From positions 1-61,973 of the forward strand of contig JAQCGX010000017.1 in NCBI GenBank assembly GCA_027619975.1: a DNA stretch of 61,973 bases, given 5' to 3'. Within the stretch, counting starts at the first letter, position 1. Each line of letters starts with the position of its first letter. The stretch comes from Nitrospinota bacterium. GTDB lineage: Bacteria; Nitrospinota; Nitrospinia; Nitrospinales; VA-1. The position numbers were made by a program, and so were the translations under genes. Under the pieces are notes generated by a model. That model had not been told where the DNA came from and ran no database searches. It saw only the letters and a list, made by a program, of their open reading frames with translations. Shown in pieces: positions 15,984-31,668 of the stretch.

Positions 15984-16015
15984 CGCGTTTGAAATTTGTC
16001 AAATGCGTTTTTTTT
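15984..16015 (+). terminator. Terminator-like hairpin between erpA and ygfZ
   Basis: An 8-bp stem (CGCGTTTG 15984-15991 with CAAATGCG 16000-16007, one G-U pair) is followed by eight T's. It ends only 9 nt before the ygfZ ATG at 16025, where there is no ribosome site, so it may also govern ygfZ expression. Confidence 0.7.
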
Positions 16016-16024
16016 CTTATCTCT

Positions 16025-17743
16025 ATGGAAACCACAATTAACATAAAAGACGAGCACGAAAAAGTCCGCGAGCACTGCGGGCTGTTTCCTCTGGATGCAT
16101 GGTGCCTGGTTCAGGCTACGGGTAAAGATATTTTCACCTATTTTCAGACCCAGACCACTAATAACGTCCTCCAACTGGAAGAAGGCCAAGGCCAGAACAG
16201 CGCCATCGTCGATCGCAAGGCCCGCCTCATCGCCTCCTTCTCCATACATCGCAACGGAGACCACTCGGTCATTTTTCTGCTGGAGTCTCAGCTTAAAGAA
16301 ACATTTCTAAAACACCTTGACAGCTACCTTTTTCGTGAAGACGTTCATGTCCAACCTTTAAACGATAGCCTGCTCGCCTTACAGGGCCCCAAAAGCGCCC
16401 TGATACTCGAAAACCTTGTTCAAGAGATATCAGTGCCTGAAAAGCTAAACTCCATTGGCAGTTTTAACTATCAGGGAAATGATGTTGTTATTATCAACAA
16501 ATCCCTGACCGGTGAGGAAGGATATATTCTCGCTTGTGATCCCTCTCAAAAGGAAAGTTTAATCGCAGGTTTTGAACAAGCTGATGACAAATGGGTTCCG
16601 GTATCTGTCAGCCCCGAGACCGTCGAGGTCCTCAGAATCGAAGCGGGCATTCCCCTGTTCAACAAAGATATCAGCGAAAAAAATATCCTCCCGGAAACAG
16701 GTCTGGAACATTCGTCTGTAAGTTATAACAAGGGTTGCTACATTGGTCAGGAGGTCATCGCCCGAATCAAAACTTATGGCGCTCCCAGTGTTGCCCTCAT
16801 GGGACTGATTATAGAAGGAGATTCCCTGCCTCCCAGCGAGGGTGTCATCCTTTTAAAGAATAAAAAAATCGGCACTGTAAAAAGCTCGGCTTATTCCTTT
16901 TCCCTAAGCAAAAATATCGCGCTCGCTTACATTCAAAAGGAGCATAGAAGCCCCGACGTGGACATGGAAGTGACCATTGATGGACTCCCATTCAAGGTAA
17001 AAACCAGCTTGACGCCTTTTTACCAACCCCAGACCCGAAAAGACCACTCCATACGGATTATGGACCAGGCGTTAAAAATTTATAAAGAAAGTGACGATCT
17101 CGATCAACCGATCGCCCTTCTCCGGGAAGCCATTGATCTGGACCCAAAAAATGCCGCCGCTTATGAAGCCCTGGGGGTTTTTCTTTCCAGGCAGGACAAG
17201 CTGGACGAAGCCATTGCCCTGATGAAGCGACTGGTGGAAATCGATCCCACCGAAATCATGGCGCATTCCAATTTATCGATCTATTACATGAAGCAGGGTC
17301 GCATCGAAGATGCAGAGTTGGAAAAGGGCGAGGCCACAGCCATAGAATTTGAACGGCTCGTGGAGAATAATATGGCCAAAAAGAAAAAAGAAAAAATGGC
17401 CGCGCAAGAAAAGATCGAACGGGAAAGAATGGTCGGAATGTTTGAACAGGTTCTGGAAATCGACCCCGTAGATCAGGTTGCCAACTTCGGCCTGGGCTCC
17501 ATTTATCTGGAAACGGGACAATACGAAAAAGCCTTGCCACCGCTACAAATTGTCATTCAGGAAAATAAGGATTACTCTGCGGCTTATCTGCTGTTGGGGA
17601 AAAATCTGGAAAAGTTGTCAAAAAACGAGGAAGCGATCGAAGTCTATCGGCAGGGAATCGCCGCCGCTTCTAAAAAGGGCGATCTCATGCCCTTAAAAGA
17701 CATGCAAAGCCGCCTCAATCAGCTACTGCATTCGGACGACTGA
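16025..17743 (+). CDS. ygfZ: YgfZ/IBA57 folate-binding protein fused to TPR repeats
   Basis: A 572-residue two-part protein. Residues 1 to about 335 form a GcvT-like folate-binding YgfZ/IBA57 domain, identified by the family motif KGCYIGQE (236-243, with the catalytic Cys238); this family supports synthesis and repair of [4Fe-4S] enzymes. From about 345 to the end lie tetratricopeptide repeats broken by a Lys/Glu-rich coiled coil (about 440-470). E. coli YgfZ is about 326 residues and has no TPRs. I chose the ATG at 16025; an upstream TTG at 15989 lies inside the hairpin. Its stop overlaps the convergent 567-residue gene by 25 nt. Confidence 0.88.
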   Translation: METTINIKDEHEKVREHCGLFPLDAWCLVQATGKDIFTYFQTQTTNNVLQLEEGQGQNSAIVDRKARLIASFSIHRNGDHSVIFLLESQLKETFLKHLDSYLFREDVHVQPLNDSLLALQGPKSALILENLVQEISVPEKLNSIGSFNYQGNDVVIINKSLTGEEGYILACDPSQKESLIAGFEQADDKWVPVSVSPETVEVLRIEAGIPLFNKDISEKNILPETGLEHSSVSYNKGCYIGQEVIARIKTYGAPSVALMGLIIEGDSLPPSEGVILLKNKKIGTVKSSAYSFSLSKNIALAYIQKEHRSPDVDMEVTIDGLPFKVKTSLTPFYQPQTRKDHSIRIMDQALKIYKESDDLDQPIALLREAIDLDPKNAAAYEALGVFLSRQDKLDEAIALMKRLVEIDPTEIMAHSNLSIYYMKQGRIEDAELEKGEATAIEFERLVENNMAKKKKEKMAAQEKIERERMVGMFEQVLEIDPVDQVANFGLGSIYLETGQYEKALPPLQIVIQENKDYSAAYLLLGKNLEKLSKNEEAIEVYRQGIAAASKKGDLMPLKDMQSRLNQLLHSDD

Positions 17744-19422
17744 CTTTTTAAAAATCCCCACAAATCAAATCCAGGCAGGAAAACCCCCTTTTGCACCAAA
17801 CTTGGCGTTATTGAAACCCCATGGTCTTTCAAAAACCAGAACTTAAGCAATAGTTTTTCCTCAACCGTTGTATAGGAATCCTCCCAGAACGTAATCGACC
17901 GGTGCTTCTCAAGCGCAGTCAAAAGATCTTCAGGGATCGTTAAGCGCTTCTTAGTGATAAACTCCTTCAATCCTTCACGGAGAAGAGGTTGCAGTTCCTT
18001 GCGACTGATCTTGATCAATTCAGATACGCTGGGAACCTGCTCGGCATGATATTCAAAAAACTTCAACTTGTAATATTGATGTATCGTTTCCAGACGAAAA
18101 TAACAATGCAGGTTAACGACATTCTCCCCATAGATTTTAATCATGTATTGGCGAATAAGGGATTTTCCAGCCTGAAGGAGTAATTTATTCAACCGTCCAC
18201 GTTCAAATAAATGAATACGAACCGTGCTCAAATGCTTGCAACATTGTGCCTCGATGGCTTCCTTAATCTTAGGGGATTGAGGTGGAATCCGGTACCAGTA
18301 AATTTCGTCCTGAGCCACCTGCAAGGCAAATTCAAAAGCTTCGGAAATCTGGTGGCTGTTGGACTTCTTGGCTTGCCTAGCGATTTGATAGGAGTTCTTG
18401 TGGGAAAATCCAAGATCAATTAATTGATCCTGAAATCCCTTACGGCGACCCATTAAATTTCCGCCACGTTCACGAATATGATCCTTGGCCTTATTCACCC
18501 CGCGCAATGCCAGACTGACGTCTCTGGGAGCTAAATTCAGTCCCAACTCTTGTGCGAAATTATGGATTTCCTCAAGGGTCTTATAGTTTAATTTATCAAT
18601 ATATAAAAATTTTTGAATGCTCGATTCTTGAAAATCACAACTCTCAAAAATTTGAATTTTTTTATATTTAACTTCTTCCCAATATTTTCTTGTTCCTTCC
18701 TTTTTCTTAAACTGAGCCTGGATTTCAGACTTCGCCTTAAAAAAGTAACTGCGAAGCAAAAACCATTTTATTTTAAGAGTCGACTCAAGAATCCATCGAT
18801 ATTTAGAAGTCAAAATATTAAGTTTGGGATCCTCCAGCAGTTCCACTTCTTCGGTTTCTAAAATATATTCTAAAAGTTCCAGATGTCTCTCTAGAAGAAT
18901 GGGGTTGATCTGCTCAATAAATTTCCTGAAAATGGTTTTCCATCGATAGACTGCGAATTCTTGAATATCATTGCAATTTTTGGCATTTCTCTCGCGCAAC
19001 TGGAGTTTAATGGACAAAATCCCGCCTTTTTCAATCTTCTCGAAAAGTTCGTCTCGAGCCACAATGTCCCGGATTTTGATTTGCTTTAACCGATTGATGA
19101 CAGGGGGAATACTATTGGAGATCGCTAGATCAAACTCTTCGTAAGTTCGAATGGGAAGAAAATAGAGTTCTTGCAAAATCTTGCTGATTTTTTCCAGGGA
19201 AATATCAGTTGTGTTCGCAATTCTCTTATAGCTGTCAAAGTTCAGGGTTTTCGCTCCTGTCTGGCAGGCCCGAATATCTTTTAAGTAATTTCGTGCTTGT
19301 TTTAACTCATCCCTTTGAGAATAAGGATCATTAACTATGCTCAAAAACAAATGCTCTGCCCTTTGCAGCTCCCTTTGTGAGAGCAATTCCAGGCCTTGAT
19401 TCAGGGGATCAAATATGAACAT
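17719..19422 (-). CDS. Unrecognised 567-residue helical protein
   Basis: A long soluble protein that I do not recognise. It is rich in Lys, Glu, Leu, Ile and Gln and appears almost wholly helical, with a possible short TPR-like start (residues 8-50) and a basic segment (KAKDHIRERGGNLMGRRKG, about 319-337). No signal peptide, membrane helix or catalytic motif is visible. Its base composition is more A/T-rich than its neighbours. The last 25 nt overlap the 3' end of the ygfZ-TPR gene on the opposite strand. It is transcribed alone. Confidence 0.75.
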   Translation of the reverse strand: MFIFDPLNQGLELLSQRELQRAEHLFLSIVNDPYSQRDELKQARNYLKDIRACQTGAKTLNFDSYKRIANTTDISLEKISKILQELYFLPIRTYEEFDLAISNSIPPVINRLKQIKIRDIVARDELFEKIEKGGILSIKLQLRERNAKNCNDIQEFAVYRWKTIFRKFIEQINPILLERHLELLEYILETEEVELLEDPKLNILTSKYRWILESTLKIKWFLLRSYFFKAKSEIQAQFKKKEGTRKYWEEVKYKKIQIFESCDFQESSIQKFLYIDKLNYKTLEEIHNFAQELGLNLAPRDVSLALRGVNKAKDHIRERGGNLMGRRKGFQDQLIDLGFSHKNSYQIARQAKKSNSHQISEAFEFALQVAQDEIYWYRIPPQSPKIKEAIEAQCCKHLSTVRIHLFERGRLNKLLLQAGKSLIRQYMIKIYGENVVNLHCYFRLETIHQYYKLKFFEYHAEQVPSVSELIKISRKELQPLLREGLKEFITKKRLTIPEDLLTALEKHRSITFWEDSYTTVEEKLLLKFWFLKDHGVSITPSLVQKGVFLPGFDLWGFLKSQSSECSS

Positions 19423-19876: not shown

Positions 19877-20884
19877 TTAGTATTTCAACTCATGCCACTG
19901 GGTGACACCTTTCTGACCGTTTCTTTCTTTATTCTGACCATTCCATACGGCCATCGCCATCGGGGTTTTACCCGATTTGAACTGCGTATCGTTCTCGTCA
20001 CCGGTAGCCAAAGCACGCTTGAACACAACCGCCCAGCGGTTGTTGCTCCAGTTGCCGGCACCCATTACATCCTGATGCGCCTGGGTCGTCAATGTGCTGA
20101 ACCCTTCTGCATTAAGATCTTCAACAGGAGATACTCTCATGCTGGCATCGGAAAGAATGTTGCCGGTTGCCCGACCAGTGTTATAAACACCCTCATTTTT
20201 GCCCATACCAAAGTCAACATAAGTGCTCCGCTTGGTGATGTCACCGGTTCCGGTTGTTTCGGACCCAGTTGCATTCCGTGCGGATTTACTGCCTGACTCA
20301 TGCTTTGTGTCGATACCACCCAATTTTCCATCGGGTTCATATATGTAGTAACTACCAGAGCCCATGGCCATATTTCCATATTGGTCTTCCATATCAGCCA
20401 TACCCGTATTTCCGGCAGATCCAGCGCCCTCTTTGTCCCAGGTCGCTTTCCATTGCCAGATGTTGACGCGTTCACCCTCTCCACCCATGGTGAAGGGAGG
20501 CTCTTCGCCAGCCTGATTCACAGGAAACATAACCGCCGCTTGGTCCTTATACTGCTGAGACTGAACCATGACGTCGTTTCTGGTAGCATCGGTCCATTCC
20601 AATCGAACAGCGATTTCCTTACCATTGTTCACAGCTTTCACGTTTACCCATTTTGTAGCCGGGTTCGGCCACATGGGATTGGTGATCATCTGTGGGTCGA
20701 GATCAATAACAAGATGCTTTCCCTTGGTAGGACCGTATTGAGACCAAAATGGGTCAGTCGGATCCGTGGGAATGTCGCCCTGTATTTTCAATGCCTGAAT
20801 GGTTGTTGCACCCACATTGGATACAAACATTCCAAACAGAAAAAAGCTCATGAAAATTAATAATAATGGTTTCTTCGTATTCAC
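19877..20884 (-). CDS. nxrC: Nitrite oxidoreductase gamma subunit (b-haem)
   Basis: A 335-residue exported protein of the ethylbenzene dehydrogenase/DMSO reductase type II gamma-subunit family, thought to carry one haem b and pass electrons out of NXR. A Sec signal peptide (residues 1-26, ending VGA) directs it to the periplasm. The C-terminal AMAVWNG...NGQKGVTQWHEL is the family signature; Met119 and Lys325 sit where the axial haem ligands of EbdC lie. I chose the GTG at 20884 because AGGAGG is 7 nt upstream of it; a TTG at 20890 is too close. It is the last gene before the operon terminator. Confidence 0.88.
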   Translation of the reverse strand: MNTKKPLLLIFMSFFLFGMFVSNVGATTIQALKIQGDIPTDPTDPFWSQYGPTKGKHLVIDLDPQMITNPMWPNPATKWVNVKAVNNGKEIAVRLEWTDATRNDVMVQSQQYKDQAAVMFPVNQAGEEPPFTMGGEGERVNIWQWKATWDKEGAGSAGNTGMADMEDQYGNMAMGSGSYYIYEPDGKLGGIDTKHESGSKSARNATGSETTGTGDITKRSTYVDFGMGKNEGVYNTGRATGNILSDASMRVSPVEDLNAEGFSTLTTQAHQDVMGAGNWSNNRWAVVFKRALATGDENDTQFKSGKTPMAMAVWNGQNKERNGQKGVTQWHELKY

Positions 20885-20891
20885 AATCAAT

Positions 20892-20938: not shown

Positions 20939-21757
20939 CTACCTCGGCTCACATTCAGCAGGAGCATTAGCAATCAGATCGTTTTCCATACTATAAGATA
21001 ATGATCGATATTCAGGCTCTTCAACCTTAACAGCCTGGACATCCAACAATGTCATTTCATTTTTAATGAAGATTGACAATATATCTATAATATCCTTATA
21101 CAATCCACGTTCGGCTTTCCTGGCGGTAAAGATGCAAAGCAAGGGTGTCCAGCGTCCCAGATGGTTACGCAAAAACTTTTTCATGCTGCTTAGCAGAACC
21201 CCTACTTTCCGTTCTTCATGACCATGCTGTATTCCATAAGCAGTCCTAAAGCTCATGTAATACATGAAGGCCAATTCGATGGAAACATGATCGACTCGCT
21301 CTTTAGACTGATTTCTTGGCAATTCAAAACCAAAAGTTTCATAAAACCCACCCAGCTGAATCAACACGTCCGTTTGCGATTGAATGCCACCTTCTGTTCC
21401 ATACTGCATTTCATATGGAGGGCATTCCATTGAAACAGCGTGTCCGAAAACATGGACATATTCTTTTTGCACTTGCGCGATGGTCATTTTCGGCAGGTAT
21501 TTGCTGAATCCTTTAACAATGGATTCCACCTGCTTCCAATCATCCTCATCCACAATCACAATGTCCATCGCTTCCATCAAGGACTTGGGCCTGAAAAACT
21601 TTCGATTCCATGGGTAGCTTAAAGCACGTGACAAAATGTCATATGCTCTTCCCCGGGCAAGATGCAAAGAAATTCTCTGCTCCTTAAGCTCATCAAGAGT
21701 GCCCGTTTCACCCAGTTTTGCCAACATAGGATCAGTTGCTTGAACAATATCAACCAT
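20939..21757 (-). CDS. TorD/NarJ-type chaperone for NXR
   Basis: A 272-residue cytosolic all-helical chaperone of the TorD/DmsD/NarJ family. It carries the family ECPPYE (about 110-115) and RVDHVSIELAFM (about 157-168) segments. Proteins of this kind bind the signal peptide and apo-form of molybdenum enzymes and hold them until the cofactor is inserted and Tat export can begin. Its place between nxrB and nxrC makes NxrA the obvious client. The start has GGAG about 10 nt upstream. The Nitrospina/Nitrospira literature gives such proteins various names, so I leave the symbol empty. Confidence 0.87.
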   Translation of the reverse strand: MVDIVQATDPMLAKLGETGTLDELKEQRISLHLARGRAYDILSRALSYPWNRKFFRPKSLMEAMDIVIVDEDDWKQVESIVKGFSKYLPKMTIAQVQKEYVHVFGHAVSMECPPYEMQYGTEGGIQSQTDVLIQLGGFYETFGFELPRNQSKERVDHVSIELAFMYYMSFRTAYGIQHGHEERKVGVLLSSMKKFLRNHLGRWTPLLCIFTARKAERGLYKDIIDILSIFIKNEMTLLDVQAVKVEEPEYRSLSYSMENDLIANAPAECEPR

Positions 21758-21885: not shown

Positions 21886-23163
21886 TTAGATCGCGCCGGG
21901 ATGCTCCTCGGGCCGTACATAGAAGGGCTCCTCAACCGTAACACGGATGATTTCTTTACCCTTCCTGTTAAACCCGATAACAGTATCGTTATACATCTCA
22001 AACTTCTTGCCGTGAATATTGGTCTCGAAAATCTTCGGACCGGGCTCACGTTTCCATTTGAAGATGATGCGCTGGGTCGTTCTGAAAAGTTGAAGCACTC
22101 CCAACAGATCCCGATCCGGAACCATGTACTGATCGATCGAATGATCGACGCCAGGTCCGAACATCTGCTGCGAGTAGGCCCTGGGAACGTGACGAGACGG
22201 TACATAGTAGCCGTTAGGCTCCGTTCCGAGCTGCGGGTACAACGGCAGTGCGACTTTACGATCCCGAATCAGATAATACTGTGGATTATCAGGATCATGC
22301 GCCCATTCGCCGTTGCTGCCGATTTTCACCAGGCCCTGCAAACGAATCTTGCCCACACAAGCCGCCATACAACGCGTTTCCATCTGATCACCCTCGGTCA
22401 AAGGATCCAATCCTTCGATTCGGGGGTAACAGGCGATGCACTTCTCGGAGATCCGGGTCGTGCCGCGAAACATCGGCTTTTTGTAAGGACACTGCTCAAC
22501 ACACTTCTTGTAACCACGGCATCGGGACTGATCGATCAGAACGATCCCGTCTTCCTGACGTTTGTAGATTGCCTTACGCGGGCAAGCTGCCAGACAGCCA
22601 GGATAGGTGCAGTGGTTGCAGATGCGCTGTAAATAGAAAAACCATATTTTATGCTCGGGCAATACCGATTTCACACCGTTGTCGCCGCCAAATGTTCCTT
22701 CGCGGGACTGGGTGAACTCACGGCCGTGAGCGGTGTCTTCTCCGAAGTTCGGGAAACGCCACTCTTCGTCCGTCGGTACGTAACCGACCGCCTGCTGATT
22801 CAAACCAATCTTGGCAGGCGCTTCAAAGATCGTTACTCCTTCGTATACGCCGTGGATCGCTTTGTTCGACGTCTTACGAACGTTCCATACGTTCTGACCG
22901 GGATTGGACTGCTCCAGCATCTTCAGAATCTTCCAGTCCCAGAACTGCGGGTAACCGCCGTAAGGTTTCGTTTCTACGTTGTTCCACCACATATACTCCT
23001 GGCCCTTGGAAAAGGTCCAGGTGGATTTGTGAGCCATGGTACAGGTCTGACAGGCGATACACCGATTCGTATTGAATACGAACGTAAACTGCTCTTTCGG
23101 ATGTTTCTCCTCGTAGACATATGTAGCCATGCGACCCAATTGCCAGTTATAGACTTCAGGCAT
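21886..23163 (-). CDS. nxrB: Nitrite oxidoreductase beta subunit (4 Fe-S clusters)
   Basis: A 425-residue electron-transfer subunit of NXR, related to NarH, DdhB and PcrB. Four cysteine groups give one [3Fe-4S] and three [4Fe-4S] clusters: CIACQTCTMAH (from Cys35), CNHCTYPGCLAACP, CRGYKKCVEQCP, and CIACYPR...CMAACVGK. The fourth ligand of the first group is His, not Cys. There is no signal peptide, so export probably rides on the Tat signal of NxrA. I chose the ATG at 23163, with AGGAGG 7 nt upstream, over the ATG 6 nt earlier. nxrB starts 83 nt after nxrA across a strong hairpin. Confidence 0.96.
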   Translation of the reverse strand: MPEVYNWQLGRMATYVYEEKHPKEQFTFVFNTNRCIACQTCTMAHKSTWTFSKGQEYMWWNNVETKPYGGYPQFWDWKILKMLEQSNPGQNVWNVRKTSNKAIHGVYEGVTIFEAPAKIGLNQQAVGYVPTDEEWRFPNFGEDTAHGREFTQSREGTFGGDNGVKSVLPEHKIWFFYLQRICNHCTYPGCLAACPRKAIYKRQEDGIVLIDQSRCRGYKKCVEQCPYKKPMFRGTTRISEKCIACYPRIEGLDPLTEGDQMETRCMAACVGKIRLQGLVKIGSNGEWAHDPDNPQYYLIRDRKVALPLYPQLGTEPNGYYVPSRHVPRAYSQQMFGPGVDHSIDQYMVPDRDLLGVLQLFRTTQRIIFKWKREPGPKIFETNIHGKKFEMYNDTVIGFNRKGKEIIRVTVEEPFYVRPEEHPGAI

Positions 23164-23170
23164 TATCATA

Positions 23171-23246: not shown

Positions 23247-26200
23247 CTAGATCTTCACGCGGATGTACTGTCCTGCCAGGTACATCTCTGCAAATCGGTC
23301 TTTCAACGGTGACTCAGGCGTATACCCGGTTCGTACGGGCTCCCAGAGTCCTTTACCATGTAATCCACCGTCCTCAGCTTTCGAGAATTTAACCAATGTC
23401 TCTTTCGGGACCGCGTTGACCGCGTGGTTGTCAGCCTCGTAACCGTGAAGGAACTTCATCTTGGATTTTGCCTTATGAAACAGACTGTCCGTCTGATGCA
23501 TCGGCATCAACCAGGATCGGGTGATGGACTGTTGTCCACCGTACCTGAAGTTTGATTGATACGGCGTCGTCATTGACATCGCGCGTCCGTCAGGCCGTTC
23601 CTCATGTGCCTTGACGGTTCGCTCTGTACCAGTCCACGTCGCATGCTTCATCATGGTGGTGTGATACGGATATGCCGGGTTGTACTTGGCTCTCAGCATC
23701 AAACGTGCCACTTTGTACCTTGGATCTGAAGGTTTCCAACCCATGTACGGTCGATCCGCGGGATTCGCGTCACAATATACATAGTCACCATCATTGATTC
23801 CAAGATCCTTACACAGGAACGGATTCATGTGTACCTGCCACTCACCAACACCAGGAGATCGTTTATCCATTCGATAAGGATCGCCGAAGTTGTTGTTCCA
23901 GATCATGTTCCAGTCAGTCGTCGCCCATGACGAATGCGCGGTATGTCGGGATTTTGGAGTGACACAGTAGAAACGATAACCCTTCTCCCACAAGAAGTTT
24001 TTGGTCGTTCGTACGGAAGACCAGGGCTTCTTGATGTTGCGGACATGACGAAGATCCGGATCCTGCTCGTCTTCCGGAATCCCGTAATCATCCGGGCGGA
24101 TGTAGGGGTTGGTTGAAACAATGACGTTCGGCAGGTAAGGCGTTGCTTCAGGGCCTTCTCTGTGAACGATGAAGTTTTCACCGAACTCGATCGCTTCCGG
24201 CTCATCGTTGTAGAACTGGATGCGGCCATTAGGCGTATAGAACGGTTTGGACTCCGTGTACATCTCCCAGAAGGGAGACCTAGGATAGGTCCGGAACAAC
24301 AACAGACACGCACCCGGCTCGCCGTACTTGCCGTTGATGATGTCATCGATGTTGTAACCCATTCCTGTGGTAGACGTCGTGAACAAGCGACGGATCATCG
24401 CTTTCGTCCGGTTGGGAGCTTCACCCTCATATACTTTCATATGATCGGCGAAACGCTTGTCACCGGTAACTTCAGCCAATCGGCGAGAGAACTGGCGATG
24501 GATCAAGTTATCATCAATGGTGTCGAAAATCGGCTTGATGCCGGTTCCGCCCCAGATCTGATGAAACGGATTCGAACACGCGGATGTGATCTCGTAACTT
24601 TCGAACTCGGCCCATGAGTTCGGCGCGAGCACGATATCCGAGTACTCACAGGAACCCGTGAACTCGATGTCCTGAGCCACGATCATGTCTACGTTGTTGT
24701 TGGTGTTGAACACCAGCTCGTAGAACCACTTCGCGTTGTTGATGACGTTCACGTTAACGAACCATACCAGCTTCGTCGGTGTCGGCATATGGGTTCGACC
24801 CGTGAATACTTTTCGACCATACCGTGGGGTATTGACGATCAGCGCCTTATCACGATGCGCCCAGTAGCTGACTTCCTCACCCTTCAAATAACCCTTGACG
24901 TTCTTCCAGTCGATATTCTTGGAAGCGTCGAGGACTGTATTGAAAGGATCTTCCGCAACCATCGCTGCGAATCCGGGTCCCGACCAATGCGATCCCTGGT
25001 AGTTGCCGGCTTTGTAGTTACCTGCCCAGGTGTGAGACCCTGAACCCTTCGGTCCTACGTTACCAGTCAGCATCAGGGGCACATAAGACGCCCGGTTATG
25101 CATCGTTGCATGGAAGTAATGGTTGATACCCTCTCCGTAATGGATCTCGACAGGCTTGATCGTGCCTATGTCGCGAGCCAGACGCAGAATCAGGTCTTTA
25201 GGAGCATGACTGATCTGGTTTACAGTATCGATGTCATAGTCCTTCAGATGGACTTTATACATCTCGTAAAGAGGCATGACAGTGATCGTCTTGCCATTCA
25301 CGAGTTTGATGTCATAAACACCGTCCAATGCAGGATCGATGTTCTTTTTTCTCATTTTAGCGCCGATGTCCTCGCGGGTGATCGCAACCGGTTTGTCGGT
25401 ATTGATATCCCATACGGTGAAATCGGGCATCTTGTCGCGGTTGAAGTTCTTCATCCACTTGGTGGTGAAGCCATCCTTCGGCAACGGTTGAACCTTATAA
25501 CCAGGAATGAAATCTTCTGGATGCAGGCGGATCAAGTTGTCCGTTCGTACCAGAAGAGGCATGTCGGTATAGTCTTTAACGTAATCTATATCGACCAGGC
25601 CTTCATCCATGATGATCTTAGCGACACCGAGGAAAATGGAGATGTCAGACAATCCAGCCCGTACCGGAACCCAGTAGTCAGCTTTCGTCGCAGGAGGATT
25701 GTACTCCGGCGCGATAGATACCAGCGTACCGCCGCGCTCCATGATCTCGGTGTACCAATGCGCTTCAGGCATCTTGTTCTCGATCAGATTCTTACCCCAC
25801 TGAATGGTCAGCTTCGCATAACGATGATCCGCAAAGTCGATATCAGAGGTCTGCATACCATGCGTCCAGGAATGTCCCGGAGCCTGATCGCCATGCCAGG
25901 TGTAGTTGGACCATGCGCGTCCGCCCAATACCTTGCCGGGACCGCGACCACGAATGATCGAGTCCAGAAGAGCTACCTGATTGGCCAGACGGTAAACACC
26001 GTATTTACCGATAACGCCGAGAAGACCCATGCCGCCACGATACTTAAATGTACGCGGACCAGATCCACCCATGGCTTCGATCATTTCAGGCTGATAACCT
26101 TCGTTCTTCAGACGTTGAGCACCACGTACGCCACTGTAAGCCTTAGCAACCGCTACGTGACCCTTCGCCAGATACGTGAAGGTCTGATCCCAGGTCATGC

Positions 26201-26708
26201 GAACGAACTCGTCCGTGCCTCGGCTCGTGAACTTATATTTTTCCCGGTTCTCTTTGTCCAGATACGGAAAACCGTCGTCCGCCCACTGCTTCCAGCCCAC
26301 GCGAATCATCGGATACTTGTTCCGATAAGGACCGTAAGCACGTCGGGGATACGTCATACCACGCAAACACATGCGGGGATTCCATGCCGCGTCGGCCTGG
26401 TTTCCATACAAATCACGCACCTTGTGATGATCGTAGTTCTGCTCGATCCGCATCAAAATGCCATTACGAACGAATCCACGAACACGACACTGATGGGTGT
26501 CATTCGGAGAACAGCAATAGGTAAAAGACCGCTCGTACTTATACTGATCGCGGTAAACTTCTTCCCAGCGCCGATCCGGATACGAATCCAGAGGATTGCC
26601 CACCTTGACTACGGGCTTCAACTGCGCTCCAACCTTCTTGCTTGATAACGCCATAGCTGTCGCTACACCAGCGCTCACCTGCAAGAATTTCCTTCTATTT
26701 AACCTCAT
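23247..26708 (-). CDS. nxrA: Nitrite oxidoreductase alpha subunit (Mo-bis-MGD)
   Basis: The catalytic subunit, 1153 residues, of the type II DMSO-reductase family; it oxidises nitrite to nitrate and gives respiratory electrons and nitrate its oxygen from water. A twin-arginine signal NRRKFLQVSAG (4-14) ends near Ala28, so the active site faces the periplasm. Cys65/66, Asp70, Cys74 and Cys114 (MCLRG) fit the FS0 [4Fe-4S] site. Asp274 in WHGDQAPG is the likely molybdenum ligand. The ATG has AGGAGG about 9 nt upstream. It has its own promoter and is followed by nxrB, a chaperone gene and nxrC. Confidence 0.97.
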   Translation of the reverse strand: MRLNRRKFLQVSAGVATAMALSSKKVGAQLKPVVKVGNPLDSYPDRRWEEVYRDQYKYERSFTYCCSPNDTHQCRVRGFVRNGILMRIEQNYDHHKVRDLYGNQADAAWNPRMCLRGMTYPRRAYGPYRNKYPMIRVGWKQWADDGFPYLDKENREKYKFTSRGTDEFVRMTWDQTFTYLAKGHVAVAKAYSGVRGAQRLKNEGYQPEMIEAMGGSGPRTFKYRGGMGLLGVIGKYGVYRLANQVALLDSIIRGRGPGKVLGGRAWSNYTWHGDQAPGHSWTHGMQTSDIDFADHRYAKLTIQWGKNLIENKMPEAHWYTEIMERGGTLVSIAPEYNPPATKADYWVPVRAGLSDISIFLGVAKIIMDEGLVDIDYVKDYTDMPLLVRTDNLIRLHPEDFIPGYKVQPLPKDGFTTKWMKNFNRDKMPDFTVWDINTDKPVAITREDIGAKMRKKNIDPALDGVYDIKLVNGKTITVMPLYEMYKVHLKDYDIDTVNQISHAPKDLILRLARDIGTIKPVEIHYGEGINHYFHATMHNRASYVPLMLTGNVGPKGSGSHTWAGNYKAGNYQGSHWSGPGFAAMVAEDPFNTVLDASKNIDWKNVKGYLKGEEVSYWAHRDKALIVNTPRYGRKVFTGRTHMPTPTKLVWFVNVNVINNAKWFYELVFNTNNNVDMIVAQDIEFTGSCEYSDIVLAPNSWAEFESYEITSACSNPFHQIWGGTGIKPIFDTIDDNLIHRQFSRRLAEVTGDKRFADHMKVYEGEAPNRTKAMIRRLFTTSTTGMGYNIDDIINGKYGEPGACLLLFRTYPRSPFWEMYTESKPFYTPNGRIQFYNDEPEAIEFGENFIVHREGPEATPYLPNVIVSTNPYIRPDDYGIPEDEQDPDLRHVRNIKKPWSSVRTTKNFLWEKGYRFYCVTPKSRHTAHSSWATTDWNMIWNNNFGDPYRMDKRSPGVGEWQVHMNPFLCKDLGINDGDYVYCDANPADRPYMGWKPSDPRYKVARLMLRAKYNPAYPYHTTMMKHATWTGTERTVKAHEERPDGRAMSMTTPYQSNFRYGGQQSITRSWLMPMHQTDSLFHKAKSKMKFLHGYEADNHAVNAVPKETLVKFSKAEDGGLHGKGLWEPVRTGYTPESPLKDRFAEMYLAGQYIRVKI

Positions 26709-26895: not shown

Positions 26896-28074
26896 TCACC
26901 CTACGCCGGCTCTTAACTCATACACTTCAACACAACGATCACAGGCGCCATCCTTGCTTTCCCAATCCGGAAAATCAATCTGTATCGCCTCAATGACCAT
27001 TTCATCACAAATACTCTCTGGATCATCCACCCAGTTATAGGTCGGAAATTTACAAAGCGGACAAGGCGAACCCTGAAGATGAATATAATCTCTCTCCTCC
27101 GCCCCCATTTCGCTCACTTCCACAAACTTACTCATCAAGGTGTCCAGATCGGTCGCCATCGACAGAAGCTCTTCGTGATTAAATTTCTCTGTAAGCCAAA
27201 GCCCTTCAAAAATCCCTTTTCTTTGTTTCTCAGGAATCTTCCTGTAAAAGTTATCGAACTCTCTAAACCTTGCCTGCTTGGACAAAACAGAAACGACCCC
27301 CATCCTTTCCAACCTGGAATCTACAAAAATATTCCACAGCAGACGAAACCGCGCGGTGATCATATTTTTCACAGACGGATTGCCGGGAATAAAGGCATCT
27401 TCATAGTCGAACTCAGGATCAACCATGTCTTTCGCATGCATGAACTCATGAATGAGAAAAGCGTTCAACTCTTGAGCTTCTTCAGGATTATTGAACCGAC
27501 TGGCCAAAACCCGCATCTCGATAATAGGTTTGTTGGAGGTTCGGGATAAAACGTTGGACCCTTCATCCACTTTATTAATTGCCCTTTTAACGAAAACCGC
27601 TTGAATCCTCTCTTCAAATTCCCGAGCGAGATCATAAGTGACCTTGCCTTCATTCTCTTCTTGAACTTCAGAGACTGAAGACGGGTCAACTTCAACTAAA
27701 TTCTCATCATTATTGGAGTCTGGGGTATTTGACGGGACTGCTTTATCGGTTTCTGAGGAAGGGGATTCTATGCTGGCTTGAGGGATGGCTGGAGTTTCGG
27801 AGACCGCTCTCTTTGCGGTGCGCTGTCTTTTGGGAATTAATCCCACCGCCTCCAAAGCCCGTAATACATGGTCACCCAATTTAATTTTCTCGACAAAGAA
27901 AATTCGGTTAACCTTTTCAAATGCTTCTTCTCGGTCGTCTTCAGGCAGTTCATATATTGGATCCGCGAGAGAATGATACTCATCGTAATCCGCACGATAC
28001 CCTGAACGTTCGTGATGGTTCAGATACCGAAAGACGGCCTCTTCCATGAGCTGAGGACTATAGGTTACTTTCAT
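26896..28074 (-). CDS. Unrecognised HExxH protein with zinc-ribbon tail
   Basis: A 392-residue cytosolic protein I cannot place. After a folded N-terminal part (1-80) comes a low-complexity Ser/Pro/Glu linker (about 88-142), then a domain with HEFMH (209-213), the zinc-protease HExxH pattern, followed by acidic residues (DMVDPEFDYED). The C-terminus has CPLC and CDRC pairs about 40 residues apart, a likely zinc ribbon. It sits 187 bp upstream of nxrA on the same strand and has its own strong promoter. A role in NXR processing or maturation is an inference from position only; the HExxH could be structural or inactive. Confidence 0.82.
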   Translation of the reverse strand: MKVTYSPQLMEEAVFRYLNHHERSGYRADYDEYHSLADPIYELPEDDREEAFEKVNRIFFVEKIKLGDHVLRALEAVGLIPKRQRTAKRAVSETPAIPQASIESPSSETDKAVPSNTPDSNNDENLVEVDPSSVSEVQEENEGKVTYDLAREFEERIQAVFVKRAINKVDEGSNVLSRTSNKPIIEMRVLASRFNNPEEAQELNAFLIHEFMHAKDMVDPEFDYEDAFIPGNPSVKNMITARFRLLWNIFVDSRLERMGVVSVLSKQARFREFDNFYRKIPEKQRKGIFEGLWLTEKFNHEELLSMATDLDTLMSKFVEVSEMGAEERDYIHLQGSPCPLCKFPTYNWVDDPESICDEMVIEAIQIDFPDWESKDGACDRCVEVYELRAGVG

Positions 28075-28155: not shown

Positions 28156-28184
28156 GTTATATTTAATTTCCCTACAGTTGTCAA
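28156..28184 (-). promoter_or_regulatory. Strong sigma-70 promoter upstream of the HExxH gene
   Basis: On the minus strand, TTGACA (28179-28184), a 17-nt spacer and TATAAC (28156-28161) differ from consensus at one base. The predicted start is near 28149, about 75 nt before the ATG. Read-through would also feed nxrA. The rest of the gap 28075-28512 is A/T-rich with no convincing gene. Confidence 0.78.
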
Positions 28185-28512: not shown

Positions 28513-31125
28513 TTATTTTTTGTCGATTGAGTCTTTCAACTTATCAATCTCTTGAATCGCCTTCATCAAATGTTCAGGGTCCCCCATTTCTTTTGCGATG
28601 GCCCTGGCTTTATCCAGATATTTATCCGCTGGATCTTTACGACTCACAATCATTTCCATGCGTGCCAACGTTAGGCAAAGCTGAATCTGGTTGCCCAGGC
28701 TTTTCGCCGCAGCAAAATTCTCACTGGCTTGATCGAAATAATTTTCGGCTTCATCAAATTGACCTTCTTTAAAACGCAAATTACCAATATAAGTTAAATC
28801 CTGCGCAGAGCCTACCTTATCGCCAATTTCTTCAGTCAATTTCAACGCCTTCAGATAGTTTTCTTCAGCTTTTCCTCTTTCTCCATTGCTAAAGCAAAGA
28901 TTGCCCAGGTTACGGTAATCTTCCGCCAACTCTTTTTTATCACCAGTTTTTTTTGAGATATCAAAGGAAGCCTGAAATTTTTCCCGCGCTTTTTCTTTAT
29001 AACCCCGGTCCATATTGTAATTCCCTAGTGCTCTGAGGTCGAAACAGGTTTCTCGCGAGTCATTCAACCCACTGGATTTTTCAAGGGCTTTTTCCAGATA
29101 ATTTTCCTGTTTCTGCCGGTCCTTTTTCTCGCTGTATATATTGGCAAGATTCCTGGCATCGTAGCAGGCAGCGCGCAGGCTCTTAAGTTCCTCGGCAACT
29201 TCAAAGGCTTTCAAGGCATATTTTTCAGCCTGACCCCAGTTCTCTCTTTGCACGTAAAGGGTACACAGATTCCGGTTGTCTTCCCCCATTTCCGGCTTAT
29301 TACCGTCTGCCGTATTCAATTCCAGAGCCTTCAAGTAATTCTGCTCGGCTCCGGCCCAATCCGTTCTCTGTAAGGACATATCCCCCAGGTTTCTATAATC
29401 GCTGACAACTCCCGAAGAGTTTCCCAGTTTTTGATTCAGCTTGATGGATTTCTTAACGGTTTTTTCTGCCAACTCGACCTTACCGAGCTTCATCAGAGCT
29501 TTGGCGCGATTTTGGTACAATTCAGGAAGACTCTGATACTCCTGTAAATTTTCCTTTATTTTTATGGCCTTAGAATAACTTTCCTCAGCTGACTTGGAAT
29601 CGTTGCTCTCGAATTGAACATTCCCCAGGTTTGCCAGTGTCTCACCACACCCCGCTTCATCTTTTATTTTTTCCTGCAGAGAAACCACCTGATTAAAAAT
29701 TTCAACCGCTTTTTCAAACTCCTGAGACAAATAATGAGCATTGCCCAACTCACCCATGAGGGCGATTTTCAATTTATCGTCTTTCTCGACTTCAGGCTTT
29801 TTCAGCTCTTCCTCGAGTTCCTTTTTCCGCCGGCTCAGGTATTCGGGTTGGCTCATGATGTAAAGTAGCTTTTCCTCGACCTGGGACACACTTTTTGAGT
29901 CCTTCATGGCATCGAACAAAGCGCTGGCACGGCTGAGATGAATTTCAGCTTCCTCCAAATTGCCTTTTTTAAGAAAGATGTCTCCTAAAACCTCGCACTC
30001 CTGAGCGATTCCCGGACGATTCTCCATCTTTTCCATAAGTTCGAGAGATCTCTGATGATTCTCCCTGGCGGCATCCCAATCTTTTTGCAGAGTTTTAACG
30101 TTGCCCAGATTGGAGTAACTCCGCGCTTCCCCTAAAACATCGCCCAACTCTTCCATAGTCTTCAGGGATTGGCTGTAATAATCCCAGGCGTTGTCCAAGT
30201 CCCTCTTGTGCAAACAAATATTTCCCATACTCCCCAATAAATAGGATTGCCGTCTTTTATCCTTCCCTTCCCGAATAAGATCCAAAGCTTTTTTGCAGTT
30301 TTCTTCGGCCAGATCAAAATTTTTGGAATCACCGGACAATCCGATTTGCAGGTAAGTGGTCGCCAGGTTTCCATAGCAAATCCCCGCCGAATGCTTGTCT
30401 CCCAGCTCCTCAAATATAGCAATGGAATATCGAGTCGTTTCCGCAACCTTGTCCATTCGGGCGCCTTTATAATATATCTCTTCCAGGTCCTGATATTTTT
30501 TCAGCAATTCACGCTTATCGCCTTTTTGGGCAACTTCTTTAATCTCAGAAAGCAATCCGCTTTCTCTGCTTTTCAGGTAGCCGGGATGCTTCTCAATGGA
30601 ACCGGATTTTTCCTGCAATTGCAGGATTTTATCTTGGTCTTTCGTGCTATCCAGACAATCACAGGCCTTGGTGAAATAGTCCCTGGCGGAATCAAACGCC
30701 TCCCGTTGCAGGTGAACGTTGCCCAGATACTCATAATAAAGCCCCTGCCCCTGAGCATCTTTTTGCTGCACCATCAGATCTAACGCCTTCCTATAATTTT
30801 CTTCCGCCTTATCCAGGCTTCCCTGATAGAGGTAAACACTTCCCAGGTTGCCCAATGAACTTTCCATGCCTTTAACATCCGCCACCTTTTCCATCAATGC
30901 CAGGGATTTGGAATAGTAATCCTCTGCCATGTCGAGGCGTTGGTTCTGGAAACAGATGTTTCCCAGACTGCCCAACACGTAGGCCTGCCCTGTTTCGTCT
31001 CCAGATTTTCCCATCAAATTCAGAGCTTTCAGAAAATTAGATTCTGCTTCCTGAAGGTTATTATTTTCCAGGCTGGCATAAGCAAGCTTTTCAAATTCTT
31101 TTCCGTTATCCATTGGGTCCATCAT
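28513..31125 (-). CDS. Large tetratricopeptide-repeat protein
   Basis: An 870-residue protein built almost entirely of tetratricopeptide repeats with a 40-residue period (pattern A..LGNxxxxxxxxxxAxxxYxKAL), interrupted by two charged linkers (about 155-205 and 420-460). The 40-residue spacing, rather than 34, is the TPR_12/Rapsyn/LGN type. There is no signal peptide or membrane helix, so it should be a cytosolic scaffold. It lies alone, divergent from an A/T-rich gap. The partners are not evident from the sequence. Confidence 0.88.
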   Translation of the reverse strand: MMDPMDNGKEFEKLAYASLENNNLQEAESNFLKALNLMGKSGDETGQAYVLGSLGNICFQNQRLDMAEDYYSKSLALMEKVADVKGMESSLGNLGSVYLYQGSLDKAEENYRKALDLMVQQKDAQGQGLYYEYLGNVHLQREAFDSARDYFTKACDCLDSTKDQDKILQLQEKSGSIEKHPGYLKSRESGLLSEIKEVAQKGDKRELLKKYQDLEEIYYKGARMDKVAETTRYSIAIFEELGDKHSAGICYGNLATTYLQIGLSGDSKNFDLAEENCKKALDLIREGKDKRRQSYLLGSMGNICLHKRDLDNAWDYYSQSLKTMEELGDVLGEARSYSNLGNVKTLQKDWDAARENHQRSLELMEKMENRPGIAQECEVLGDIFLKKGNLEEAEIHLSRASALFDAMKDSKSVSQVEEKLLYIMSQPEYLSRRKKELEEELKKPEVEKDDKLKIALMGELGNAHYLSQEFEKAVEIFNQVVSLQEKIKDEAGCGETLANLGNVQFESNDSKSAEESYSKAIKIKENLQEYQSLPELYQNRAKALMKLGKVELAEKTVKKSIKLNQKLGNSSGVVSDYRNLGDMSLQRTDWAGAEQNYLKALELNTADGNKPEMGEDNRNLCTLYVQRENWGQAEKYALKAFEVAEELKSLRAACYDARNLANIYSEKKDRQKQENYLEKALEKSSGLNDSRETCFDLRALGNYNMDRGYKEKAREKFQASFDISKKTGDKKELAEDYRNLGNLCFSNGERGKAEENYLKALKLTEEIGDKVGSAQDLTYIGNLRFKEGQFDEAENYFDQASENFAAAKSLGNQIQLCLTLARMEMIVSRKDPADKYLDKARAIAKEMGDPEHLMKAIQEIDKLKDSIDKK

Positions 31126-31668
31126 CCTCTGAAATTTTTAAGGAACAAATCGCTCCCACCCCTCTGCCAAATCGAGGTGTGTTGAAACGCACGGTGGCGC
31201 AACAAAACAATATTTTGTTATTTTTTGATTACCCGGAATTATATTGGGAATGTCGGCAGGATGTCAACCCACGGAAATTCTTTGACAAATCAGCGTCTGG
31301 GCCAAAACCTTCCACCCAAACCAGAAGAACACCGGGGCCATTAAAAGATAAATTGATAGAATCCACCCTCAACAAGTCTGCATACGGCTTAAGCGTGGAG
31401 TTTAAGTTCAAATTGTGAGCGCTTTATTTTAAGCTGGATTCTATATACCCTGATTTATCATGTGGTTAGAAGCTGTTCGATCAATCAAAAAATCAACGAA
31501 CTCCAACGAAAAATAAGCTTTCATGATAGTTCATTTTCAAAAATTTTTAAACGGTTAATTCAAACTATTAACATATAGCTTCAAACTGCCTGTATTACCA
31601 CTGCCTGTTTGGGAGTTCAAACCCAATGTTTAACAGCGTGGTTTTCACGGGTTCTTAATTTATTTAAA
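31126..31668. other. A/T-rich non-coding gap upstream of the TPR gene
   Basis: About 540 bp with no ORF that has a ribosome site or protein-like composition. Short readings on both strands (for example 31113-31418 plus) look like chance. Confidence 0.5.

Follow-up and report, generated by a model that had tools for sequence, protein, structure and literature searches.

SprT-like proteins contain an HExxH helix that is followed by a C-terminal Cys4 ribbon. Nitrite oxidoreductase (NXR) is the main nitrate-making enzyme and the source of most nitrate on Earth. Apart from a presumed TorD-like chaperone, little is known of how its periplasmic form is assembled. For another group of exported molybdoenzymes, the periplasmic formate dehydrogenases, a specific soluble CX2C protein has been described, FdhE, which works beside FdhD and is thought to proofread the molybdoenzyme before export (PMC10609526). 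The NXR that was purified from Kuenenia consists of A, B and C, and NXR-T is added in tubules (PMC8387239). Lücker et al. (2013; PMC3578206) listed "one putative zinc finger" protein together with NXR and a TorD-like chaperone among the conserved genes common to Nitrospina gracilis, Nitrospira defluvii and Kuenenia; it was mentioned in passing and was neither described nor tested.

The window, i.e., the whole stretch of 61,973 nucleotides of Nitrospinota DNA that was analysed, contains on its minus strand an open reading frame for a protein of 392 amino acids (26896-28074, ATG to TGA), which belongs to an unnamed NXR-linked family. It is a real gene, as 40 loci encode a homologue with 67-82% identity where it is full length. 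In comparison with the nearest relatives dN was 0.11-0.16, while dS was saturated, and the window's genome has one copy of the gene. The protein starts with a helical N-terminus, which is followed by a disordered linker (residues 83-154, 27613-27828, minus strand), an insertion that is found only in Nitrospinota members and is missing from the members of other phyla. Then follow a zincin-like core with the motif HEFMH (residues 209-213, 27436-27450, minus strand) and a C-terminal ribbon domain (residues 331-391, 26902-27084, minus strand) with the pairs CPLC (338-341) and CDRC (378-381). An earlier note on this DNA had reported a protein of this length with this motif and these pairs, and all of these features were confirmed. 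No signal sequence could be recognised in the family protein; NxrA, by contrast, opens with a twin-arginine motif.

The gene is part of a series of genes on the same strand. In their order these encode an 870-aa TPR protein (28513-31125), the family protein, the catalytic molybdopterin subunit NxrA (23247-26708, start MRLNRRKFLQ), the iron-sulfur subunit NxrB (21886-23169), a TorD/NarJ-like chaperone (20939-21757, matching PF02613 at 2e-17 and TIGR03482-like), and an NxrC-like heme b subunit (19877-20890, EB_dh, PF09459). The coordinates bear out the previous statement that the family gene is oriented towards nxrA and ends 187 bp before it. At those Nitrospinota loci whose sequence extends far enough (L002-L039, L132, L135 and L137), the TPR gene is the immediate upstream neighbour of the family gene, and no TPR protein was seen at the NXR-type operons of other phyla. 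Most Nitrospinota loci with enough sequence on the other side have, after torD/nxrC, the genes for a 567-aa protein without a Pfam or NCBIfam match (17719-19422) and for a GcvT-like protein with TPR repeats (15989-17743). A second nxrA start is present at the end of contig C30 of the window's own genome (L043); its upstream DNA differs and carries a terminator-like inverted repeat.

The 40 loci of the genome collection have Nitrospinota-type labels with three exceptions. Two loci are labelled Nitrospirae/Nitrospirota (L004 and L033), and the third (L041) is an end fragment of 61 amino acids that is 100% identical to the window protein and stems from a bin called Alphaproteobacteria, which is probably contaminated. 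Within the phylum the family was detected in 53 of 77 genomes, all of which belong to the taxonomic order of the window's genome, and it was absent from the other families of the class. At 37 of 37 loci that were readable downstream, including the window, the next gene was nxrA (15), nxrB (6) or torD (16), while four more loci end at or inside the family gene. Many contigs break off at the start of nxrA, as is expected of a multicopy gene. The gene content of the loci varied. In one single-contig genome (G047) the locus has the order TPR-family-nxrB-torD and two nxrABC sets are located elsewhere, in another (G010) the family gene is found at one contig end and nxrB-torD at the other, and a third genome (G029) has a family-torD locus apart from nxrABC. 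Thus, the presence of nxrA or nxrAB varies while the family gene stays paired with its constant partner torD, which indicates that the family is tied to the chaperone and not merely to nxrA. Loci with nxrB but without nxrA are consistent with a loss of nxrA from the family-gene locus. Such an nxrB is situated between the family gene and torD in L132 (9533-10807) and L193 (12347-13621), which belong to single-contig genomes with nxrA elsewhere, and nxrB directly follows the family gene in six further loci (L005, L009, L010, L011, L015 and L037). The idea of a co-loss in G057 was dropped, since the match there covers just the first 37 residues and the region contains a run of N. Within Nitrospinota the link to NXR is confounded with the lineage.

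Profile searches revealed 15 core-domain members outside Nitrospinota (G162, G262, G291, G248, G173, G293, G213, G271, G446, G440, G251, G397, G364, G225 and G104). Homologues spread in genomes without nxr, which the earlier note had named as the finding that would speak against a role in NXR maturation, were looked for, and all 15 members turned out to lie inside an operon with close relatives of NxrA and/or NxrB. Most of these NxrA proteins are 55-62% identical to that of the window, and genes for a TorD-like protein and for an ethylbenzene-dehydrogenase-like heme b protein are usually in reach. The members cover at least five phyla besides Nitrospinota: G262, G173, G162 and G225 each come from a different small phylum, and the remaining members, with the exception of G291 and G293, lie in none of these four; the phylum-wide searches around the four distant hits comprised 2-4 genomes each. 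The position of the family gene varies in the other phyla (before nxrA, after nxrB or after torD), and the NXR link does therefore not rest on one inherited gene order. Among 214 sampled genomes outside the phylum, 13 had a close NxrA relative, and the family was present in 9 of these 13 and in none of the 201 others (2x2 table 9/0/4/201; Fisher p ~3e-13). In two of the four NxrA-containing genomes without the family the contigs end within nxr (G193 and G132). In the other two (G123 and G226) the NXR-type operons are flanked by sufficient sequence on either side, and these look like real absences, so that the family is not universal in NXR-type operons. Genomes that had only a 38-44% identical NxrA relative contained no family member, and the plasmid collection yielded no match to the family. 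As judged from these genome sequences, the NXR link of the family is real. Whether the operons of other phyla serve nitrite oxidation or nitrate reduction is, as Kop et al. cautioned, not readable from sequence (PMC10839748).

Complete family members were restricted to NXR-type operons. Short relatives of the core that lack the ribbon (e.g., in G204 and G353) occur outside of NXR contexts, and thus the fold is not NXR-only. One distant core relative without ribbon, with a length of 212 aa (L181, 8903-9541), directly follows the large subunit of a [NiFe]-hydrogenase. The ribbon in turn recurs as a stand-alone protein of 61-85 aa and ahead of DUF1003 domains (L187, 14952-15137; L188, 4874-5131; L192, 411-623; L182, 9681-10388; L185, 9528-10184). 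Weak hits that were ribbon-only or little more were discarded (G108, G136, G099, G246, G123, G173:C47, G248:C106, G382 and G412), and some of them stand before DUF1003. The hits in G196, G141 and G100 are outside of both the list of 15 members and the discarded weak hits. Several NXR-type operons of other phyla encode a small conserved protein of 85-138 aa between nxrA and nxrB (L106, 14105-14452; L107, 7434-7691; L175, 13578-13994; L176, 12385-12747).

The pairwise distances of the family, with near-duplicates excluded, correlated with those of NxrA (r=0.54, reached by 3 of 5000 permutations) and with those of TorD (r=0.66, reached by 7 of 5000 permutations). This tracking is as expected of partners, though it would equally arise if the operon had been transferred as a unit. 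The mean divergence was 0.74 for the family, 0.69 for TorD and 0.33 for NxrA. A divergence that resembles that of TorD and is well above that of NxrA fits an accessory protein. The tight gene linkage and the distance correlation with NxrA, together with a Cys4 site that could hold iron, would also be compatible with a subunit of the NXR complex that has a structural role or transfers electrons. However, the divergence of the family is far above that of NxrA, no signal sequence is recognisable while NxrA has a twin-arginine start, and the composition of the Kuenenia enzyme given above also argues against it; a subunit is thus very unlikely.

Scans of Pfam, NCBIfam and PHROG with single proteins and with a 20-member alignment gave nothing above noise, and sequence searches of the PDB yielded no match to the family protein. 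This agrees with the earlier note, which had recognised no family. The Pfam and NCBIfam peptidase profiles, including the SprT-like ones, did not match, nor did PF02613. An AlphaFold2 prediction on 34 sequences comprised a helical N-terminus, a disordered linker, three strands followed by the motif helix and a second helix, and an unresolved C-terminus. The core had pLDDT values mostly of 70-86, and its order strand-strand-strand-helix-helix is the zincin order. Foldseek against the PDB gave nothing significant, with a best fold match of E=1.7. The predicted zincin order, an HExxH motif that is intact in 32 of the 52 members as it is in the window protein, and the motifs HELTH and HEMSL in two distant relatives would be in accord with an active zinc metallopeptidase acting on NXR precursors (e.g., misfolded NxrA), either to process or to degrade them. 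However, an intact HExxH is not a family feature. Across the 52 members the first histidine is H in 32, Q in 13, R in 5 and F in 2 cases, and hence it is lost in 20; it is replaced by Q in 13 of the 37 Nitrospinota members and by R or F in 7 of the 15 others, which requires at least six steps on a tree with long and uncertain deep branches. The second histidine is H in 48 members and Q in 4, and several members have lost both. Together with the missing Pfam peptidase match and the missing significant fold match this makes a working peptidase unlikely; the HExxH reading of the family appears weak, and the peptidase that had previously been suggested as an example was not upheld.

Other positions are highly conserved. 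All but one of the 52 members have E210, and D216, F222, W247, R254, E11, Y41, R48 and F52 are invariant. The Cys4 ribbon is also kept in 51 of 52 members, the one without it being G364. Among Nitrospinota the mean pairwise identity is 0.94 for the ribbon, 85% for the core and 0.34 for the linker, and the ribbon is the slowest-evolving part. Because the motif is degenerate while the ribbon is conserved, a peptidase is a poor fit for the family, and a scaffold bearing a conserved metal ribbon suits it better. The conserved Cys4 site and the conserved acidic residues E210 and D216 could also be those of a carrier that performs a chemical step, the delivery of an Fe-S or Mo cofactor to NxrA/NxrB, and in G262 and G291 the family gene is separated from nxrA by a ferredoxin-like gene. 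Yet Cys4 pairs of such spacing usually bind structural zinc, the libraries gave no match that resembles known carriers, and one member does without the ribbon. A carrier is therefore regarded as improbable.

The earlier note had assigned to the gene a strong promoter of its own, TTGACA-N17-TATAAC, which is of the sigma-70 type and is located on the minus strand at 28156-28184, ~82 bp upstream of the ATG. A consensus scan that requires the -10 box to end in T misses it. A match of 11/12 within 438 bp arose by chance in 8 of 300 mononucleotide shuffles (~3%), and taken alone this single match is weak evidence. In 20 of 20 Nitrospinota relatives, however, a TTGAC[A/T] box and a -10 element that fits it were found at -102 to -156, in most cases at -102 to -126, and this pair is the sole conserved block between the genes, the remaining intergenic DNA being unalignable. 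The recurrence of this only conserved intergenic block indicates by its footprint that the promoter is real; it is thus the presence of the proposed promoter that stands, at the level of sequence. Just upstream of the TPR gene a 12/12 sigma-70 consensus, TTGACA-N18-TATAAT, was observed (31238-31267, minus strand). Small Cys4 ribbons often touch nucleic acid. A conserved promoter of its own and such a ribbon, which would contact DNA or RNA polymerase or sense nitrite or a metal, might point to a regulator of nxr expression. Against this, no DNA-binding family matched, the gene is linked to torD and not to regulators, and the DNA upstream of the several nxrABC copies is unrelated, so that a regulator is highly improbable.

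Taken together, the family protein is probably a cytoplasmic factor dedicated to the assembly or proofreading of the periplasmic-type NXR, and it would mostly be non-proteolytic. A maturation role is inferred from the position beside a TorD-type chaperone, the lack of a visible signal sequence and the analogy to FdhE, and we likewise infer the cytoplasmic location, the binding to NxrA/NxrB and the metal of the ribbon. The protein would stay in the cytoplasm, as no signal sequence is recognisable, and would most likely act jointly with the TorD/NarJ-like chaperone encoded nearby, binding NxrA or NxrAB while these are still immature and Tat export has yet to occur, so that both proteins could hold or check the NXR precursor. 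Contact or sensing would mainly fall to the Cys4 ribbon, which is probably loaded with metal, and the zincin-like core may serve as a scaffold in which the peptidase site is often dead. A more far-reaching version is put forward tentatively: the family might be the missing NXR-specific maturation factor that, together with the TorD-like chaperone, is needed for active exported periplasmic NXR in many phyla, with an ancestral zincin fold that turned into a non-catalytic scaffold with a Cys4 ribbon. The proposal of the earlier note that the protein is an NXR maturation or quality-control factor is thus retained as an NXR-dedicated accessory role, in view of the operon restriction, and is given up with respect to the peptidase. 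A second NXR-tied factor would be a concrete gene to co-express or delete, and it may help to account for the further needs of NXR production in other hosts. In addition, the family could serve as a marker by which NXR-type operons are recognised in uncultured phyla.

A literature search retrieved no description of the family, of its wide distribution or of the degenerate HExxH. The "putative zinc finger" protein of Lücker et al. is probably of the same family, and the NXR linkage would then have been seen before. With SprT-like proteins and other HExxH zincins the family shares the HExxH helix and the subsequent C-terminal Cys4 ribbon, and it differs in that no peptidase profile matched and that the degenerate motif is accompanied by the invariant residues D216, F222, W247 and R254. 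The TorD/NarJ chaperones (PF02613, TIGR03482) occur in the same operons and would have the same target, NxrA; they are, however, separate proteins, the window encoding its own TorD-like chaperone, and the family protein is devoid of PF02613. FdhE resembles the family in its CX2C pairs, in the genetic tie to one Tat-exported molybdoenzyme and in the second chaperone alongside, and, as would be expected for an FdhE-like role, the family gene is tied to one Tat-type molybdoenzyme across phyla. In contrast, FdhE has four CX2C motifs and the family protein two CX2C pairs, a zincin-like core is not known from FdhE, and the two proteins have no sequence match, although a solved FdhE (2fiy) is in the PDB. 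FdhE is proposed to be the nearest functional analogue of the family, which by sequence would not be its homologue.
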